Source: Spartobacteria bacterium AMD-G4
GTDB taxonomy: Bacteria; Verrucomicrobiota; Verrucomicrobiia; Chthoniobacterales; Terrimicrobiaceae
Length of the DNA: 32,408 nucleotides
Assembly: GCA_002290555.1 (NCBI GenBank)
Contig: NEUK01000025.1
Span: 1-32,408, forward strand
Reading direction: 5' to 3'
Part shown: positions 554 to 16,961 of the stretch, one piece after another
Layout of the letters: each line of letters begins with the position of its first letter
How positions within the stretch are numbered: position 1 is the stretch's first letter
Made by a program: the position numbers and the translations under genes
Notes under the pieces: generated by a model
What the model saw: only the letters and a program-made list of their open reading frames with translations
Told to the model about the DNA's origin: nothing
Databases searched by the model: none

Positions 554-1510
554 TCACTCGGCAAGGATCTGATTCGGGCGTTTTTCGTCCGCTGGAGCAT
601 CGGTGGCCGAATCTGGCAGCGCTACAGGACGGTCGCTGAGCGAGGGCACAGCGGGCTTGGCAGCTGCCGCGGCGGGGTCGATTTCTTGAGCGCCGATGAC
701 CTGGATTTTTCCATCGGGGCCTTCACGAAGGATCGGGCGCTTCACAATCTGGCTGTATGTCTTGCGCTGCAGAACTTCGCCGTTGAGGCCGATGTGCGAA
801 TAAAGAAATGACTTGGGAGCCGCATTTTGAAGGATATGAACCTGATTTTTCTGATCGAGAATGATTTCCGGTGTGCCGTAGGAAACGAGCCTCCCCAAGC
901 GGTGCGTGCAGAAAACCGTGCCACCTTTTTTGTTTTCGATACGGAGGTAGAGCTGTGTGCTGTTCGGCAGGCGGTGCGTCATCGCTGTGATTTCGCGCGT
1001 TTCGCCTGCTCCCGGCATTCCGTCGGGGACTCCCACTATCTTTTGGAAAACAGGGCGTCCGTCGGTGATCTCGATGTTCAACGCCGGAGAGTTGAAGAAG
1101 CGCTTGAGGGTTGCGGCGTAGATGGCGGCCCGAATGCGGTAGCCGCCAAATTCCCCGATCGGAAAGAGGGGAGTGAGATTCACGGTGCGGCTCAGCTTTT
1201 GACCCGCCTCGAGGACGAGAGACTCGTTTGTATAGTTCAAACTCCGTGGAGCAATCGGGCGTCCGTCGAGCGTCTCGACCTGGAATCCAAACCAATGGTT
1301 GTCATTCGCATCACTGAGTGGAAGCGGGTTTCCACTCAGGTTGGTCATGCTCACGGTGATCAAAATCGGCTCGTAGCTGACATAGAGCGTGCGCTTGAGC
1401 TTGATATCCACCTGCAATTGCGCAGAGCCGCAGTGGATGAAGCCGAAGAGAGCCAGCGCAAGAACGACAAGCCGCAGCGAAGCGGAGTGAGCCTCTCTTT
1501 TCATGCCCAC
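554..1510 (-). CDS. secreted or lipoprotein-like hypothetical protein
   Basis: 318 aa ORF with N-terminal hydrophobic signal (LRLVVLALALFGFIHCGSA). It lies 41 bp downstream of the 1552-3843 gene on the same strand. Confidence 0.75.
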   Translation of the reverse strand: MGMKREAHSASLRLVVLALALFGFIHCGSAQLQVDIKLKRTLYVSYEPILITVSMTNLSGNPLPLSDANDNHWFGFQVETLDGRPIAPRSLNYTNESLVLEAGQKLSRTVNLTPLFPIGEFGGYRIRAAIYAATLKRFFNSPALNIEITDGRPVFQKIVGVPDGMPGAGETREITAMTHRLPNSTQLYLRIENKKGGTVFCTHRLGRLVSYGTPEIILDQKNQVHILQNAAPKSFLYSHIGLNGEVLQRKTYSQIVKRPILREGPDGKIQVIGAQEIDPAAAAAKPAVPSLSDRPVALPDSATDAPADEKRPNQILAE

Positions 1511-1551: not shown

Positions 1552-3843
1552 TTAATTCGCGTCCTCGGCGGTTCGGAAGCCCAGCGCGTCGTCGCTCTGG
1601 AATTCCGTGAGCTTCGTTCCTCGGCGAAGGGCGGTATTTTCCTCGGGCGTCTTCCAGCTGCTGCCACGGTAGACTGGAACCTTGTCGCCTCCCCGCTCGG
1701 CATCCTCGGCCCACGAATCTGTCCACTCGAAGACATTGCCTGCCATGCCTTGCACCCCGAAACTGCTGACATCCGTTTTGGGCTTGTTCACGGGACTCCA
1801 GCGCTTGAACCCATCGTTTTGGGCGCCGACCTTTGGGTCTGGGTTGTTGCTGAAATCGCTACCAGTGTTGGCAAGTTTGTTGTCAAATTCATTTCCCCAC
1901 GGGTGGTTGAGACCCTTGTCGCCGCGTGCGGCACGCTCCCACTCCTGCTCGGTGGGCAGGCGCTGACCTTTCCATTTGGCGTAGGCATAAGCATCATACC
2001 AATCAACTCCGAAAACCGGGGAGTCAAGGGAGAGGGGAACCTCCTGATAGCGACCCCATTTCTTCGCCCTGCTGTAGTAGCCGGGGTTAGGCGGGCTGAG
2101 CTGGGTCATGTCGGCCCAGCCATTGGGAATGTGCGATTTCCCCGGTGGTTGCTTGGGGTGGGCCACTGCCTTCGCTTTTTCTTCACTCCCACTAACATCT
2201 TTCAGAAATGCGGCGTATTCGATGATCGAGACCTCGTATTTGGAGATTTTAAAGGCGGGCACTTTCACTCTCCGGCCTTGAATGGTGATTTTGCCTGCGG
2301 GGATTTCGACCATCTTACCCAGGTCTTTGACGTTTATGCTCGTCTTCGTGAGGGATTTCCAAGCAAAGAAACAGGCCGCTACTGTGAGTGTCAGCGAAAC
2401 GGCGCTGTAGATGATCGTGTTGCGGCGATTGTTCTTTTTAGAGTCCTCTACAGCGCGAATTCGGGCGATGCTCTGAGACTGGATTTTTGCGGCATCGACG
2501 GGAGCGGCTTTCGGCATCCGACTCTCGGCAAGATCGGCGATGGCGGCCCATGTAGATTTTTCAGGGGCCAAGTTTTGAATTTCGGTCAGTGTTGTTTGAG
2601 CGACGGCGGAGGATGCGTCTGCTGCCAAGAGCGGCCTCAGGAGGCTGATCAGATTTTGGATTTCCTCCGGGCGGTCGATGGGAGTTGGAGCCTGGTCGCA
2701 GGCCAGATTTGTCAGGCGTGGCGCGCTTCCCGGCTTGAGAAGGATGTGGCGTGGGAGGAGTGCAACGCGGGCTATGCATTCCTTGTCGAAGAAGTTGAAA
2801 ACCTCCCCCACGGTTTTAACAATCTGAAGTGCGGTAGGGGCATCGATTTTTCGACCGTTTTCAATCACATCCTCGAGTGTGGGCGCCGCGACGATCTCAT
2901 TTGAGTAGTAGTGGACGCCCTCATGCTCGCCGCGCTCGTAGACAGTAGTCACGAGCGTGTGTGTCACGCGTGCTTTGGCGCGGGCGTTGGCCATGAACTT
3001 CTCCAAGGTGATAGGGTCGGCTGCTGCTGCGGGTTTCAGGACGCGGAGCATCACCGGACGGCCGATATTTGTCTGTGTGGCTCGATAAAAGGTTTCGGTC
3101 TCCATGTCGCGAATGCGAGCTTCAATTGTGAAATGGTGGAGCGTTTTTCCGACCCATTCATCAGGAGGAAGGTCAGGCTTGGGCGGTAGAGCGGGGGCCG
3201 CAGCGGGCCTCGCCTGAGCTTTTGCAACAGGTGTTGCCGCGCCCTTGGCTACGGATTTCATTGCCACTTTGGGCGTCGCCGCAACTCCAGCTTGAGGCTT
3301 GGCTGCAGCAGCTTGAGGCTTGGAGGTAGCGGTGGCTTGAGGCTTGGCGGCAGCGGCTGCCGCGGGTTGGGCAGCGGCTGGTTTTGGAGCGACCGCAGCA
3401 GACCTCGGCTGCGCAGCCGCAGCAACGGGCTTAGGAGCTGGAGCTGGAGCTGGAGCTGGAGCTGGAGCTGGAGGGGCTGCCTGGGATTCGTCGGCGATTC
3501 CGAGTTCTGTCAGGGCCTGCGCGAGGGATTCGTTTGTGATCGGTTGAGAAAGGAATGGCGCTCCGGCGAGACGCTCCATATAGGGCGAGATGTCGTGCGG
3601 CGAGGTGAATATCACCTTCAGATCAGGCAGGTAGGGGAGGAGTGCATCGCGGAGGGAGAATCCATCCAGGGGGGTGAGATAAACTTCCGAGATGAGTAGG
3701 TCGCAGCCTCCATTGGTGTTGATCCACTCGATGGCGGCGTCCGAGTTTTTGGCCAGCCCGAGATCGGATTTGCCAAGTGCTGTCAGGGACAGTGCGAGGG
3801 TTGATGAGGTGTCGGAATCGCCGAGTGCTATGAGCGTCTTCAT
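1552..3843 (-). CDS. multi-domain protein: receiver-like domain, Ala/Pro-rich linker, Ser/Thr kinase-like (pseudokinase) domain, TM helix, FGE-sulfatase/SUMF1-like domain
   Basis: Start placed at MKTLIALGDSD (ATG 3843-3841), overlapping the upstream stop (TAATG). REC-like block CDLLISEVYLTPLDGFSL; kinase-like block GKTLHHFTIEARI...RPVMLRVLKP...; TM NTIIYSAVSLTLTVAACFFAW; C-terminal FGE-like motifs VPAFKISKYEVSIIEYAAFL, GVDWYDAYAYAKWKGQRLPTEQEWERAARG, GVQGMAGNVFEWT, ALGFR. Confidence 0.85.
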   Translation of the reverse strand: MKTLIALGDSDTSSTLALSLTALGKSDLGLAKNSDAAIEWINTNGGCDLLISEVYLTPLDGFSLRDALLPYLPDLKVIFTSPHDISPYMERLAGAPFLSQPITNESLAQALTELGIADESQAAPPAPAPAPAPAPAPKPVAAAAQPRSAAVAPKPAAAQPAAAAAAKPQATATSKPQAAAAKPQAGVAATPKVAMKSVAKGAATPVAKAQARPAAAPALPPKPDLPPDEWVGKTLHHFTIEARIRDMETETFYRATQTNIGRPVMLRVLKPAAAADPITLEKFMANARAKARVTHTLVTTVYERGEHEGVHYYSNEIVAAPTLEDVIENGRKIDAPTALQIVKTVGEVFNFFDKECIARVALLPRHILLKPGSAPRLTNLACDQAPTPIDRPEEIQNLISLLRPLLAADASSAVAQTTLTEIQNLAPEKSTWAAIADLAESRMPKAAPVDAAKIQSQSIARIRAVEDSKKNNRRNTIIYSAVSLTLTVAACFFAWKSLTKTSINVKDLGKMVEIPAGKITIQGRRVKVPAFKISKYEVSIIEYAAFLKDVSGSEEKAKAVAHPKQPPGKSHIPNGWADMTQLSPPNPGYYSRAKKWGRYQEVPLSLDSPVFGVDWYDAYAYAKWKGQRLPTEQEWERAARGDKGLNHPWGNEFDNKLANTGSDFSNNPDPKVGAQNDGFKRWSPVNKPKTDVSSFGVQGMAGNVFEWTDSWAEDAERGGDKVPVYRGSSWKTPEENTALRRGTKLTEFQSDDALGFRTAEDAN
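3434..3469. repeat. hexanucleotide tandem repeat (GGAGCT)x6
   Basis: Six consecutive GGAGCT copies read directly; they encode Ala-Pro repeats (PAPAPAPAPAP) in the minus-strand CDS. Confidence 0.95.
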
Positions 3844-4835
3844 TAGGGTTGGCTGGGGAGGTAGAGTGGCAGGGGGTGGTCGGCCGCAAGCGATCCGGGA
3901 TCGGCCCGTGTGTCTTGGAGGTCGTTCTTGTAGTAGATTCCGACCACATAGCCCACATAGGTGAATGCGGGATTCGTAGCGGGTGTGTAGATGGCGTTCA
4001 AAAGTTCTGGCTCGTTGTTGCTCCAATCGACAGGTGGGCTGATCCATTCGGTGACCACCTGAGAGTTTGTGAGTTGGATTTGGCCGGTTTCATCGCGCTC
4101 GTAAAAGAAAACATGCACAGCTGTGAGTTGGGGGTCCACGGCCGGTTTGGGTCTGGACTTGATCGATATGCGCAGGATTTTTGTGTTGTTTGGGCCATCG
4201 CTTTGAAGTGTCTCAATGATTCCGAGATTCGCCCCGGGCTGCAGTCCAAACTCATCCCGCATGTCGGCGCCGGCCTCAGTAGCCAGCACCGTTGGCACCG
4301 GGGCCGTCTCAGGTAGACTGAGCATCCCCATTTTCCGTTGAGTCTGGGCGCGGAGCTCGGTGGAAAGGTCCGGTAAGGCGAGCACTTTTTTGTAGGAGTC
4401 CGAGGCCGCCAAGATGTCACCTTTTTTCTCCAGCAGGCGCCCGATACGAAGCATCACCCCGGGATCGCCTGGCAGAATTTTATCGGCCTCTTGGATTTTC
4501 CCCAAACCGAGGTCGTATTCGCCTACTCGAAAAGCCTTGTCCGACTCATCGACAAGGCGGGTGATCCTTTGCATGAGCACCTCATCGATTTGAGCCCCTG
4601 ACTCAACGGGCTGAGGCGTGCTTTGGACTGCCGCGATTGGCGCCTGGGCTGCTGCCACTTGCTCAACCGGGGGGGGAGCGTTTGCCGTGATTTTTTGAAC
4701 GATGTCTTTTTGGAGGAGTGGGGCGAAGTGCAGGGCGACCAGCCCTATTTGCAGGATCAGAAAGATTCCCAGCAGGGCGGCGGAAACCCGAAAAGTTGTC
4801 CCAACAGGCATTTGGGGAATGGGTGGTTGGCTCAT
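3843..4835 (-). CDS. membrane-anchored TPR-like protein
   Basis: 330 aa; N-terminal TM (VSAALLGIFLILQIGLVALHF) and TPR-like helices (DKAFRVGEYDLGLGKIQEADKILPGDPGVMLRIGRLLEKKGDILAASDSYKKVL). Overlaps the next CDS by 1 nt. Confidence 0.8.
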   Translation of the reverse strand: MSQPPIPQMPVGTTFRVSAALLGIFLILQIGLVALHFAPLLQKDIVQKITANAPPPVEQVAAAQAPIAAVQSTPQPVESGAQIDEVLMQRITRLVDESDKAFRVGEYDLGLGKIQEADKILPGDPGVMLRIGRLLEKKGDILAASDSYKKVLALPDLSTELRAQTQRKMGMLSLPETAPVPTVLATEAGADMRDEFGLQPGANLGIIETLQSDGPNNTKILRISIKSRPKPAVDPQLTAVHVFFYERDETGQIQLTNSQVVTEWISPPVDWSNNEPELLNAIYTPATNPAFTYVGYVVGIYYKNDLQDTRADPGSLAADHPLPLYLPSQP

Positions 4836-4919: not shown

Positions 4920-5540
4920 TTACGCTGCAGGCCTTTTGCGGAGGAGGCCGAGCGTTTCACGCCCCAGCCTTCCAGGGAATGTCGGAGTGCATGTGGTCAT
5001 TTCGAGGATTTCAAAGCCCCCCTCGAAACAGGCTCGGATTTCGGCAGGGTCGCATCCGAAGGGGGGGGCGTGCGGGTCTGGGTTCTCGGGATTGGTAAAA
5101 AACACGGCAAGCAGCAACCCTCCGGCGTCCAATGCGGCGTGGGAGGCCCTCGCGTAATCGCTCCGACGGCCGGGTGGGATGGCGCAAAAGCAGGTGTGCT
5201 CAAAAATCGCATCAAAGGAATCTGAAGGCACGGCCTCACCGCTCAAAAAATCACCTCTGAGATAAGTTTCGTTGCCGGTTTTCAAAAAACTCTCAGCCAG
5301 TCGCAGCGCCGAGGGTGAAATGTCGAGTCCGAGGACGAACTCGGACCCCTGTGCGGCAATCGCGCGCACATCGTGGCCTGCTCCGCAACCTGGGACCAGC
5401 ACCCTGCCCGGAAGAGGGTGTTTTTTCATCCAAACCCGCAGTGCTGGGTGGGCGCCACCTTTGTCCCACGGCGTATCGCCGGCGACGTAGCGTGCATCCC
5501 AATCAACGCCTGCGCCAGCGGGTGCCAAGGGAGATGCCAT
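4920..5540 (-). CDS. TPMT/thiol methyltransferase-like SAM-dependent methyltransferase
   Basis: Start assigned at [41 protein letters not shown]-type features: GRVLVPGCGAGHDVRAIAAQG, FDAIFEHTCFCAIPP. Confidence 0.85.
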   Translation of the reverse strand: MASPLAPAGAGVDWDARYVAGDTPWDKGGAHPALRVWMKKHPLPGRVLVPGCGAGHDVRAIAAQGSEFVLGLDISPSALRLAESFLKTGNETYLRGDFLSGEAVPSDSFDAIFEHTCFCAIPPGRRSDYARASHAALDAGGLLLAVFFTNPENPDPHAPPFGCDPAEIRACFEGGFEILEMTTCTPTFPGRLGRETLGLLRKRPAA

Positions 5541-6246
5541 ATTGGAATTTTCTGGAATGTTCACGGATGAGGAATGGGAGATTTTTTGTGAGTTCGAGAG
5601 AAAACGCCGGCTCCAGAATCTCTGCAAGGATTTCATGCGAGGGACGCGAAGCCCCCATTCCTCCCAGCCAATTCTCCTCGGGCGTGAATTCCGCGAGCCA
5701 GGAGAAGGGGGTCGCAAGCAGCAACTGCCCGCCGGGGACGATGAGATCCTTCAGGCGCTCGATGAATCGCATCGGTTGCGGTAGGCGGCAAATGAGATTC
5801 GCCGCCAGCACGACATCAAAGACTCCGATGTCATTTCGCAAATCCATCGCGTCTCCCGTTTCAAAATGAACGCGCCCACGGTCGATCCCTTGGGGAACTT
5901 GGGCCTGGAATGCTTGCTCGCGCTTGCCTTCGAACGCCACTTTGGCCTCTAACGATCCAGTGGTTTTCAATGCCTGCGCGGCATCAATGAATGCCCCGGA
6001 AAAATCGATGCCTGTGACATGGGAGATCGATCGGGTGAGTTCGAAGGACGACGCTCCGACTGCACAGCCTACATCCAATGCTCGGTGGGGAGTGGATGCG
6101 CGGTCGATGAGCTCGGTGACTACCCGCATGGGAAAACCCCATGCCTCCTTTGGAACCGGAAGGTCGCCGGCCGCCTCGGTGAATGTGGCGTAGTGAAAAA
6201 AGAGATACTCATCAACCAGCTTCCGAGACTCGTAGGGATTTTGCAT
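5503..6246 (-). CDS. putative 4-mercaptohistidine N1-methyltransferase (OvoA C-terminal-like, stand-alone)
   Basis: [23 protein letters not shown]...[36 protein letters not shown] resembles the stand-alone ovoA_Cterm methyltransferase family as I recall it. Confidence 0.75.
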
Positions 6247-9168: not shown

Positions 9169-10302
9169 TTAGAACCTCGAACCGGTATTTGCCGTCCACT
9201 TTTGAACGAGTTCAAGCCACTCGTCCGAGTTGATGAAATGCAGCATCGCCTCGTTGATTTTTTTATAGTCCTTGTGGCCTTCGCGAATCGGAATGGCGAG
9301 ATAGGCTTCGCGCAGGCGGAAGGAAGGGATGTTGAAGTGAATCGGCGGCTTGCGGTGAGCGAATTCCTTGCTCACGAAGGAGAGGGTGTTTCGGTCTGCG
9401 ACGACACCTTCGATTTTTCCCGCATGAAGATCCTCAAAGGCTTCGGAAATGCTTTCGTATTCATGTGTGGTGACTCCGATGCGGGTGAGGATGTCCGCTG
9501 AGAGTGAGCCTCGGAGCGCTCCGCAGGACAGGTGTTGGAAATCGGAAGCGCTCTCGATGCTGTTTGCCCTTCGAGCCATGGAAATGCTTGAGGTGATCGT
9601 GGCCGTGAATGCCGAGACGAGAATCACTCCGAAAAGCATCCAGAAAACAGCGATAATCCTACCCGTGATGGTCGCCGGTGTTTTGTCACCATAGCCAACT
9701 GTGGTCATCGTCACCGCTGAAAACCAAAGAGCGGAACCAATGCCGCTGAGGCCTCCATGAAAATGCTTGGTTCCGTGATGGCGCTCCGCCAGCCAGAGCA
9801 AGAAGCTGATAGCCAGCATGGCTGTGAAGATGAAGAGGAGGTATCCCGCGATGCTCCAGTTGAAAAAATCCTTGATCACATTTTTCCAAGCCGATTCCCA
9901 GTGGGTCTTGGCCAATGCGATACAGAGGCTCGAGGTCAGGAAAGGTTGGGTGAAATCCACAATCTTTTCGGCCTCTGCGGAGACTTCGATCTCGCCCGCC
10001 GCCGCATCGAGTTTTCCATCCGCCACCTGCGGGATCAAATCCTCGTTGGGAAGTTCGATAAATTCGAATTTCAACCCCGTGGCATCGCTGATTCCTTGCC
10101 AGAGGCCGGGAGCAAGGCCGGTCCATGTGCCATCTGGATTTTTCAAGGCATACGGGGGCTTTTCATGGATGCCCACGCGCAGAGGGGCTTCCTTTTCAGC
10201 ACTCCTCAGGAGGGGCAGGGCGCCCAGCAGGAGCAACACCAAAAATGCGCGCCGCAGGTGCCTTCCCACTTGGCGGATTCGGGTTCCGCGACCGCAGGTC
10301 AT
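9169..10302 (-). CDS. GluR0-like glutamate-receptor-type potassium channel (periplasmic binding domain split by a TM-pore-TM module)
   Basis: Binding-protein lobe LRVGIHEKPPYALKNPDGTWTGLAPGLWQ; pore GSALWFSAVTMTTVGYGDKTP; second binding lobe after the pore. ATG at 10302 overlaps the upstream stop (ATGA). Confidence 0.9.
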   Translation of the reverse strand: MTCGRGTRIRQVGRHLRRAFLVLLLLGALPLLRSAEKEAPLRVGIHEKPPYALKNPDGTWTGLAPGLWQGISDATGLKFEFIELPNEDLIPQVADGKLDAAAGEIEVSAEAEKIVDFTQPFLTSSLCIALAKTHWESAWKNVIKDFFNWSIAGYLLFIFTAMLAISFLLWLAERHHGTKHFHGGLSGIGSALWFSAVTMTTVGYGDKTPATITGRIIAVFWMLFGVILVSAFTATITSSISMARRANSIESASDFQHLSCGALRGSLSADILTRIGVTTHEYESISEAFEDLHAGKIEGVVADRNTLSFVSKEFAHRKPPIHFNIPSFRLREAYLAIPIREGHKDYKKINEAMLHFINSDEWLELVQKWTANTGSRF

Positions 10303-11531
10303 TGGCCTCGCCGGATGCGGGATCCGGGGAAGTTGACAATGAAGCGCCACACAATCTTCTCGCGGTTTTCGATCTCCCATGTCTCTGGATTTATTTTTCC
10401 AGGCACCTCGTAGCGGCGGATATCGATGACGGTGTCGTAGCCGCGGTCGGCGAAGATATCGATGATCATCGCCAGCACGACAGGCTCTGCGAGTAGCGAA
10501 TTTTCGGAGTTGATGTGCGCCCGGCCGGACATGTTGTGACGGCGAATGATGGGCATGAATTTTTCATCGATGAGCGCCACCGATTGCTCAAAGAGACCCG
10601 GGTGCTCCGCATTGTAGTTGTCGAGGCGCATCACGAGCTCCTGCCTCGCATGGATGCTCAACTCGCGGGCGATTGGAATGCGGGAGATGCGGTCGAAGGT
10701 GCTCTGATCGAGTTCCAATGAGCTCTGGTAGCGGAGTTCGTCCTGAATGCGCCTTTGCACCTCGTCCACCGTGCCGTGTGCGTTGACATAGTGGTAGTGG
10801 AAGACTTGGCGCAGGGTTTTGAGGGATTCGTAGGTGACTTCCTTGAAGGTGCGGTAGCGGTTGCGCGCGGCTTCGTCGGAGAGATCCGTGGACCGGGTTT
10901 CGATTATCTCGCCGACTCCGGATGCCTCCACAGCGGCATTGTGGGCGCGGGCACGCTCACCGCGAAGAATCTGGCGGCGGACGGACTCGGCTTCATCCAC
11001 AAAGAGGACGACAATATGGAACATCGGCTTGCGGAACTGTGCGGCTAGAGAGGTTCCGACATATTGATTCCGCAGGGCGATGAGTTTTTCATGCAGCAGC
11101 CGGAGGCAAAGAACCTGAACTTTCGTGCGCGGGTAGCCATCCACCACGACACCGGTTTGGTTCTCGGGATGCAAAAGCGCTCGCAAAAGCAGACCTGTCA
11201 CCTCGCGGTCGCCAACCATCATCCCAGCATCAATCAGCTTGCGCGCGGCCGGGCTGTCAAGAAGCGCACTAACCACAATCGGTTCGGCCGTGAGGCTGCG
11301 GTAGTTTTGAATAAATCGTGTTTGAGTGCCTTTTCCAGCTCCTGGCGCGCCATTCAGCCAAATGACTTCGTTGGGGAAGGTGAGTTCCTCGATTCCGACT
11401 TCGGCCACCAAATCCTGCCAGGCGGCATTGAAGATAAGATTTGCATCTTTCACTTCGAGGTCGATCGCCTGTGCGGGCGAGGGTTTGGATGCAGGCGTCA
11501 AGGAAATCGGGTCTTGGGAAGTTTTCATCAA
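10299..11531 (-). CDS. adenylate kinase-like nucleoside monophosphate kinase with long C-terminal extension
   Basis: P-loop WLNGAPGAGKGTQTRFI; VVVDGYPRTKVQ; RRQILRGERARAHN. 410 aa, much longer than a canonical Adk. Confidence 0.85.
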   Translation of the reverse strand: MMKTSQDPISLTPASKPSPAQAIDLEVKDANLIFNAAWQDLVAEVGIEELTFPNEVIWLNGAPGAGKGTQTRFIQNYRSLTAEPIVVSALLDSPAARKLIDAGMMVGDREVTGLLLRALLHPENQTGVVVDGYPRTKVQVLCLRLLHEKLIALRNQYVGTSLAAQFRKPMFHIVVLFVDEAESVRRQILRGERARAHNAAVEASGVGEIIETRSTDLSDEAARNRYRTFKEVTYESLKTLRQVFHYHYVNAHGTVDEVQRRIQDELRYQSSLELDQSTFDRISRIPIARELSIHARQELVMRLDNYNAEHPGLFEQSVALIDEKFMPIIRRHNMSGRAHINSENSLLAEPVVLAMIIDIFADRGYDTVIDIRRYEVPGKINPETWEIENREKIVWRFIVNFPGSRIRRGQ

Positions 11532-14961: not shown

Positions 14962-16272
14962 TTATTTGGAGGGGACGGATTCCCTCTGCGAGAGGGGGAG
15001 TCGAATCACGAATGTGGCACCGGCTCCTGGCGTGCTCCGCAGGGAAACCCCTCCGCCATGTGCGAGGATGATATTCTTGACAATGGATAGCCCGAGTCCC
15101 GTGCCTCCGGCGTCGCGTGCCCTGTGTTTGTGCACGCGGTAGAAGCGCTCGAAGATGTGGGCCTGATCCTCGAGAGGGATTCCTGTGCCGTTGTCGGCGA
15201 TTGATATTTCCACGGACTCGCCAGCGAGTCGGGAGGTGATTTGGATTCGCAGTTTGTTGGTCTCGCCGTGGCGGATGGCATTGGTCAGGAGATTCCAATA
15301 AACCTGCTCGATCCTGCTCTCATCGGCATCGGCATAGATGGCATCCTGAGCCCAGTTGATTTCAAAAATCGCCTTCTTCGCCGAGCCGCTGCTGTCTAAA
15401 TTTTCAATGACGCGCTCGGCGATTCGCCGAAGGTTGAGTCTCGAAAAATTCAGACGCCGACCCTTGCCTTCCATGCTGGAAATAGTCAGTAAATCCTCGA
15501 GTAGCAAAGAAAGCCTTTGCACATTGCGGTTGATCGCACCGAGCGACAGGGCGGTCATCTCGGCATCCTCTGTTGCGCCGTCTTGAAGAGTTTCCACATA
15601 GCCGCTGATCACCGAGAGCGGCGTGCGAAATTCATGGGAAACATTTGCGACAAATTCCCTTCGTGCGGATTCCAGTGTGCGGATAGCCGTGACATCCTGA
15701 AAAACAAGAAGCACCGCCTGTGGGGGGTCATCGGGTTGGCGCACCATAGGAGAAATGTGGATGTCGAAGTGCTTTTGGAGGACGGCTCCACCCGGCTGTG
15801 GAAAATCAAAAATCAATGAAAGGTCCCTTTTCTTGGCATCTTCGAGTGTCGCGGAGACGGCCTGCTCGATCTCATGGCGACGGAAAACTTCGAGAGGCGA
15901 ACGCCCGACTGGCGACTTGGCTGCCGGAAAAAACGCCTGTAGCGATTCGTTGGCGAGGGTGATTTTTTTGTTTCTTTCTGCGATGACGATGCCCTCTTTC
16001 ATGCCGGACAGGATTCCCCGCAGACTTACGCCGCCTTCCACCGTTTCCTCGTCGAGTTGTCGCAACCGCTCGGCGATTTGTCGGATATGGCTCGCCGTGG
16101 ATTGGTAGGTGGATGACTCCAAGTCCACAGGTGGGAGTCGGAACTGACCTGCCGAAAGGTTCTCAAGATCCTGCTTGATTTGGTGGAAGGGTTTGATGAA
16201 TCGGAGGTAAATCCACCACCCGGCCGCGATGATGGCAGCCGCCAGCAACAAGAAAATTTCTATTGTGATCAA
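14962..16272 (-). CDS. phoR: PhoR-like sensor histidine kinase
   Basis: H-box FVANVSHEFRTPLSVISGYVETL; N-box VYWNLLTNAIRHG; G-boxes DNGTGIP, GTGLGLSIVK. Single N-terminal TM. ATGA overlap with the regulator gene. Confidence 0.92.
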   Translation of the reverse strand: MITIEIFLLLAAAIIAAGWWIYLRFIKPFHQIKQDLENLSAGQFRLPPVDLESSTYQSTASHIRQIAERLRQLDEETVEGGVSLRGILSGMKEGIVIAERNKKITLANESLQAFFPAAKSPVGRSPLEVFRRHEIEQAVSATLEDAKKRDLSLIFDFPQPGGAVLQKHFDIHISPMVRQPDDPPQAVLLVFQDVTAIRTLESARREFVANVSHEFRTPLSVISGYVETLQDGATEDAEMTALSLGAINRNVQRLSLLLEDLLTISSMEGKGRRLNFSRLNLRRIAERVIENLDSSGSAKKAIFEINWAQDAIYADADESRIEQVYWNLLTNAIRHGETNKLRIQITSRLAGESVEISIADNGTGIPLEDQAHIFERFYRVHKHRARDAGGTGLGLSIVKNIILAHGGGVSLRSTPGAGATFVIRLPLSQRESVPSK

Positions 16273-16961
16273 GGTGTCGTGAGGCCGTTGAAGCGGTATC
16301 CATGGCCCCGCACGGTTTCAACCTTTGTAGCATGGTCACCCAGTTTTTCGCGGAGTCTCCGCATGTGGGTGTCCACTGTTCTTGTGTCTGCTCCAGTGGA
16401 ATACCCCCATACATCGCTCAGGAGGGTTTCGCGGGAAAGAGTTTTACTACGGTTGTGGATGAGTGTGAGGAGGAGCTTGAACTCGATGGTGGTCAAATCC
16501 AGACGCTCGTTGCCAATCGAAGCCTTGAGAGTGGATTTATCGATCGCAATGCCATCGACTTCCACGATACTGACCTCCTCGGCAGCGCTGCGTATGCGCC
16601 GCAGCAGACCCTGCACTCGAAGGACGACCTCCTTGGGACTAAATGGCTTGGTGACATAGTCGTCGGCTCCAATTTCGAGGCCCTTCACCCGGTCTTTGAC
16701 CTCGCTGCGGGCGGTCAGCATGAGCACGGGTATGGAAGCCGTTTCGCTGTCGATTTTGAGGGCGCGACACACCTCCAAACCGGTCATTCCGGGGAGCATG
16801 AGGTCGAGAACCACGGCATCCGGCCTCTGGGAGCGCACAGCGGCAAGACCGGCATCGCCGGAATTCGCAATTTGGACTTTGAACCCGGCTTTTTTGAAGT
16901 GGTAGCGAAGCAAATCGACCACATCACTTTCATCTTCGACCAAAAGCACGGTGTCTTCCAT
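16269..16961 (-). CDS. phoB: PhoB-like OmpR-family response regulator
   Basis: Receiver VLLVEDESDVVDLL...DAVVLDLMLPGMTGLEV...TKPF; C-terminal winged helix TRTVDTHMRRLREKLGDHATKVETVRGHGYRF. Confidence 0.93.
   Translation of the reverse strand: MEDTVLLVEDESDVVDLLRYHFKKAGFKVQIANSGDAGLAAVRSQRPDAVVLDLMLPGMTGLEVCRALKIDSETASIPVLMLTARSEVKDRVKGLEIGADDYVTKPFSPKEVVLRVQGLLRRIRSAAEEVSIVEVDGIAIDKSTLKASIGNERLDLTTIEFKLLLTLIHNRSKTLSRETLLSDVWGYSTGADTRTVDTHMRRLREKLGDHATKVETVRGHGYRFNGLTTP

Follow-up and report, generated by a model that had tools for sequence, protein, structure and literature searches.

What a bacterium does with a signalling protein whose kinase-like domain carries none of the residues needed for catalysis is the question raised by gene B. 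This open reading frame (763 amino acids plus stop; 1552..3843) lies on the (-) strand, as do all features of genes A, B and C given below, of the window, the whole 32,408-nucleotide stretch of Spartobacteria bacterium AMD-G4 DNA analysed here. A first-pass annotation had read it as a fusion of several inactive modules acting as a scaffold or ligand-sensing receptor rather than as an enzyme. The reading frame is indeed present as described, and its start at 3843 is favoured by the orthologs over a longer ATG at 4047; this start ATG overlaps the stop codon of the upstream gene A (TAATG). The encoded protein has the order receiver, linker, pseudokinase, transmembrane (TM) helix and FGE-type domain. 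Residues 1-115 (3499..3843) form a degenerate receiver, assigned by a sub-threshold Pfam Response_reg match (E 0.003), the ortholog alignment and AlphaFold2. They are followed by a low-complexity, Ala/Pro/Lys-rich linker (residues 116-227; 3163..3498), delimited by AlphaFold2 pLDDT values mostly below 50; in 5/30 aligned orthologs a DUF4388 domain sits between receiver and kinase. The pseudokinase occupies residues 228-445 (2509..3162). Beyond it, a hydrophobic stretch noted by eye (residues 477-495; 2359..2415) falls within a long helix, residues 451-499, predicted by DSSP on the AlphaFold2 model, and is taken as a TM helix; the FGE-type domain then fills residues 509-763 (1555..2319; Pfam PF03781, E 4e-38), so that the membrane helix and C-terminal domain originally proposed are both recovered. 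The predicted topology places the receiver and pseudokinase in the cytoplasm and the FGE domain presumably in the periplasm. A search of the contigs of the same genome for loci related to B returned matches confined to the FGE part and the stretch immediately ahead of it.

Pfam Pkinase was not found in the B protein itself, and its assignment as a kinase domain therefore comes from its relatives and from structure. Pfam Pkinase matches 16/30 of the orthologs, and the NCBIfam PknB model matches residues 252-348 of B (E 2e-16), well short of the curated cut-off for that model. A profile built from the B orthologs found PknA (3e-25) and PknB (7e-23) in the PDB. AlphaFold2 modelled residues 228-445 as a bilobal kinase fold with a pLDDT of 96.1 and a pTM of 0.91, and Foldseek placed mycobacterial PknA/PknB at the top for this model (E 2e-13, TM-score up to 0.79 by query length); the full-length AlphaFold2 model agrees. 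On these predictions the kinase fold in B is firm, and the fold anticipated between residues ~270 and 480 is present. The domain is, however, compact: it spans 218 amino acids, little structure is predicted between the DFG position and the next helix, and the helices past that position, read from secondary structure without superposition, are few and close together. This suggests that the activation segment of the modelled domain is shortened and that the G helix is missing.

The Ser/Thr kinases PknA and PknB thus share the fold of B and are its nearest PDB structures by both profile and model, whereas B lacks the VAIK Lys, the HRD Asp and the DFG Asp and carries an FGE domain in place of PASTA on the outside. 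HMM alignment to PknA and the motif table put Arg267 (codon 3043..3045) at the VAIK Lys, RVALLPRH (residues 359-366; 2746..2769) at HRDxKPxN and NLA (N379-L380-A381; 2701..2709) at DFG. Within the second motif, R359-V360-A361 (2761-2769) stands at HRD and H366 at the catalytic-loop Asn. The three substitutions had been read by eye, and the profile alignment returned them at the same codons. An active Ser/Thr kinase carries all three residues, at which B has R267, A361 and N379; having a kinase fold and lacking at least one catalytic residue, it is a pseudokinase by fold and sequence. An alternative catalytic Lys or Asp was also considered and rejected, as inspection around the motifs found none. 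Since AlphaFold2, Foldseek and the profile all recover the fold and no substitute residue was found, the original reading of a dead kinase domain therefore stands. The genome as a whole does not show such motif loss: three other protein kinases encoded in it keep intact HRD and VAIK patterns together with DFG or DLG.

The same loss runs through the family. Asn replaces the DFG Asp in 41/42 aligned kinase domains, the HRD Asp is missing from all 42 rows except two with HLD (L012, L014), the VAIK Lys is retained in eight (all from families f3, f4, f6, f10 and f11), and no row has all three motifs together. Seven further homologs from elsewhere in the class have lost the motifs in a similar way; two of them keep the Lys, and one has His at the DFG Asp position. 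Because the DFG Asp is Asn in nearly every row, the alignments indicate that the catalytic death of this domain is family-wide and old. As canonical kinases have the Lys and several separate families do not, it would appear to have been lost repeatedly; the unrooted kinase-domain tree implies a minimum of two changes. Other kinase-domain residues are near-invariant (for example Q257, R262, E303, E316 and W432), none of them with a canonical catalytic counterpart.

The family is also widespread. In a search for the same domain order elsewhere, matches spanning both the kinase and FGE parts, counted from the match table, occur in about 42/58 genomes of the order or nearer, the source genome included. 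Homologs are found elsewhere in the class, among them one in Akkermansia muciniphila (genome G146, most likely ATCC BAA-835, near 2,175,508-2,177,028). Rows of the kinase-domain tree group largely by family, with some weak deep branches and three long ones (L073, L075 and L030), and B is apparently inherited vertically. The pseudokinase evolves under purifying selection: dN/dS, computed on the two halves of the domain and rough since several dS values exceed 1, is about 0.06-0.15 in 5/6 close pairs, much as in the FGE domain, and reaches 0.36 in the C-lobe of the sixth pair (L009-L010), where substitutions are few. The FGE domain is present in 30/30 aligned orthologs. Architectural variants do occur: the receiver is absent from the Akkermansia protein and two other class-level homologs, family f8 either lacks B or keeps no more of it than a receiver and a DUF4388-like stretch, and in one locus (L053) the open reading frame stops before the FGE domain.

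The receiver and the FGE domain were likewise thought to be inactive, and here the picture is mixed. A phosphorylatable receiver has an acidic pair, an Asp and a Lys. In the ortholog alignment B has L7/G8 at the acidic pair; the phospho-acceptor Asp is replaced by Glu53 (3685-3687) and the Lys by Gln100 (3544-3546), and Ser81 is kept. The clade of B has Glu for the Asp, no acidic pair, and Gln or Leu for the Lys; f4, f35 and class-level loci share the Asp to Glu change. Several families (for example L022, L023, L031, L034 and L043-L046) have a canonical receiver, so a dead receiver describes B and some lineages but not the family. The FGE domain scores 131.8 bits against PF03781 (curated cut-off 23.3) and carries the GNVxEW and GFR motifs; NCBIfam models for GldK, EgtB and PvdO give 50, 71.4 and 28.3 bits against cut-offs of 350, 360 and 500. 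B therefore shares the FGE fold and motifs of the FGE/EgtB/PvdO/GldK superfamily; it differs in having no FGE cysteine pair, no visible DinB domain, and a fusion to a TM helix and pseudokinase. The active-site cysteine pair of a formylglycine-generating enzyme is missing from B, whose FGE domain contains no cysteine, as the first reading had noted, and was found in no ortholog across the conserved C-terminal stretch of the alignment. Members without the pair are usual in this superfamily, EgtB, PvdO and GldK among them, so its absence is not clearly a loss and is not in itself proof of a dead enzyme. We also rejected the FGE end as the target of a diversity-generating retroelement: it is conserved, and the genome's sole RVT_1 match is intron-like and on another contig. 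That match (L058, 1123-2277) looks by sequence like a group II intron reverse transcriptase/maturase.

B is the middle gene of a conserved A-B-C cassette. Gene A (3843..4835; 330 amino acids) has an N-terminal TM helix by eye, a TPR region and a conserved C-terminal domain, and gene C (554..1510) begins at GTG 1510 or ATG 1504 with a signal-like sequence, also by eye. C belongs to no Pfam family, and a PDB profile search with it gave no significant match, the weak ones being arrestin-like. Where an ortholog locus has enough flanking sequence, tblastn nearly always places C next to B, and in most cases A as well; the complete A-B-C arrangement is seen within the order and also in Akkermansia and f35. 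Seven loci, from further families, have A-B without an adjacent C (L115, L116, L119, L120, L123, L125 and L128), and in f7 and f13 A and C are present with no B between them. C is found in 137/188 class genomes, with a single match each, and in 93/145 genomes of a phylum sample, 87 of them with a single match. The six with two matches are G231, G271, G272, G289, G299 and G310; in 5/6 the matches are adjacent on one contig, where a single gene may have been hit in two parts. Of the 188 class genomes, 105 have the C-terminal domain of A. Because this gene order is conserved, A and C are likely partners of B.

The wider surroundings of these genes were also inspected. The genes outside C vary and gave no consistent lead to its function, an approach we therefore abandoned; by eye, C is followed by an mreB-like gene in one locus (L078, 3004-4204) and preceded by a rho-like gene in two (L080, L081). 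A DUF4340 gene lies directly before A homologs in L114, L117, L118 and L124, itself preceded by an ABC_transp_aux gene in L117 and, by eye, by a similar gene in L124; this context left the function of A unexplained. Within the window, two adjacent methyltransferase genes, one with a TPMT match, lie upstream of A (4920-6246, (-)). The product of a further gene (9169-10380, (-)) matches SBP_bac_3, Lig_chan and Ion_trans_2 and resembles a prokaryotic channel of the ionotropic glutamate-receptor type. The sole histidine kinase of the window forms an ordinary-looking pair with its own regulator (14962-16961, (-); HisKA/HATPase_c and Response_reg/Trans_reg_C).

Taken together, we consider it on balance probable that B is an old non-catalytic transmembrane scaffold or switch that works through protein-protein contact. 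Since relatives throughout the class share this loss, the pseudokinase has probably been retained for a scaffold or switch role and not for enzymatic activity. Lacking residues for ATP binding, metal binding or catalysis, it would offer a docking or dimerisation surface. The presumably periplasmic FGE domain would bind something there, most plausibly the TM-TPR protein A and/or the secreted protein C. The receiver, phosphorylatable in many orthologs, would set the state of B, and the Asp to Glu change possibly fixes that state in its lineage. This retains the non-enzymatic part of the original proposal, with a kinase death that extends to the whole family, but "dead" has a different meaning for each of the three modules, and a scaffold or ligand-sensing receptor is a role that we infer. 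Set against a scaffold is the dispensability of its modules in places, namely the missing receiver in Akkermansia and the departures in f8, f7 and f13. The VAIK Lys kept by eight orthologs also counts against it, as part of the family may bind nucleotide.

The receiver is also the basis of a rival account, in which B acts chiefly as an output or sensor protein of a two-component system: the receiver is regulated, the pseudokinase and FGE domain relay the signal to or from the periplasm, and Asp to Glu fixes an active-like state. Many orthologs do have a canonical receiver, f8 keeps just this domain and the DUF4388-like stretch, and the Glu recurs in the clade of B, f4, f35 and class-level loci. 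However, three class-level homologs, that of Akkermansia included, do without a receiver, and no histidine kinase stands beside B in the window; we regard this account as unlikely. Less likely still is a kinase-like domain with another enzymatic activity or with metal-free nucleotide binding, for which SelO and SidJ are precedents among kinase-like folds (PMC12599244). The near-invariant Asn379 and the eight rows with a VAIK Lys would suit it, but the Lys is lost in most rows and the remaining near-invariant residues are not the canonical catalytic ones. Finally, the FGE domain could be the business end, structural or binding as in GldK, above a vestigial cytoplasmic part. Its presence in every aligned ortholog and the partial, weak NCBIfam matches to EgtB, SenA and GldK agree with this, yet those matches lie far under their cut-offs and extend over no more than the common FGE core, and purifying selection acts on the cytoplasmic domains; we therefore hold this to be very improbable.

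The scaffold or switch that we favour has a parallel in EssB/YukC of type VIIb secretion, a membrane pseudokinase that has lost all three motifs, has a reduced activation loop and works by scaffolding (PMC12599244). Receiver, DUF4388 and FGE domains are not described for EssB/YukC in that review, and the likeness is one of analogy only; as such it supports a scaffolding role for B. The review distinguishes seven bacterial pseudokinase families, ActPs1-3, GLW, CP1, DYD and DLHK, some of them without all three motifs, and ActPs1 often lacks the G helix (PMC12599244). Like B, all are conserved bacterial pseudokinases, a comparison made by the review's description alone. It makes no mention of Verrucomicrobia, receivers or FGE (PMC12599244), our search for literature on Akkermansia or Verrucomicrobiota pseudokinases returned nothing relevant, and we found no description of the architecture receiver, DUF4388, pseudokinase, TM, FGE.

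To conclude, bacterial pseudokinases have been little studied, and B represents a conserved family of them with a conserved operon, whose lineages retain different subsets of the catalytic residues and whose likely partner C is a widespread Verrucomicrobiota protein outside any Pfam family. We tentatively suggest that A, B and C may assemble into a trans-envelope complex of early origin in the class, with the pseudokinase as cytoplasmic assembly hub and the secreted, usually single-copy C as periplasmic or surface partner. If this is true, A-B-C would be an undescribed envelope machine. As a member of the family is present in cultured A. muciniphila, its function is directly testable.
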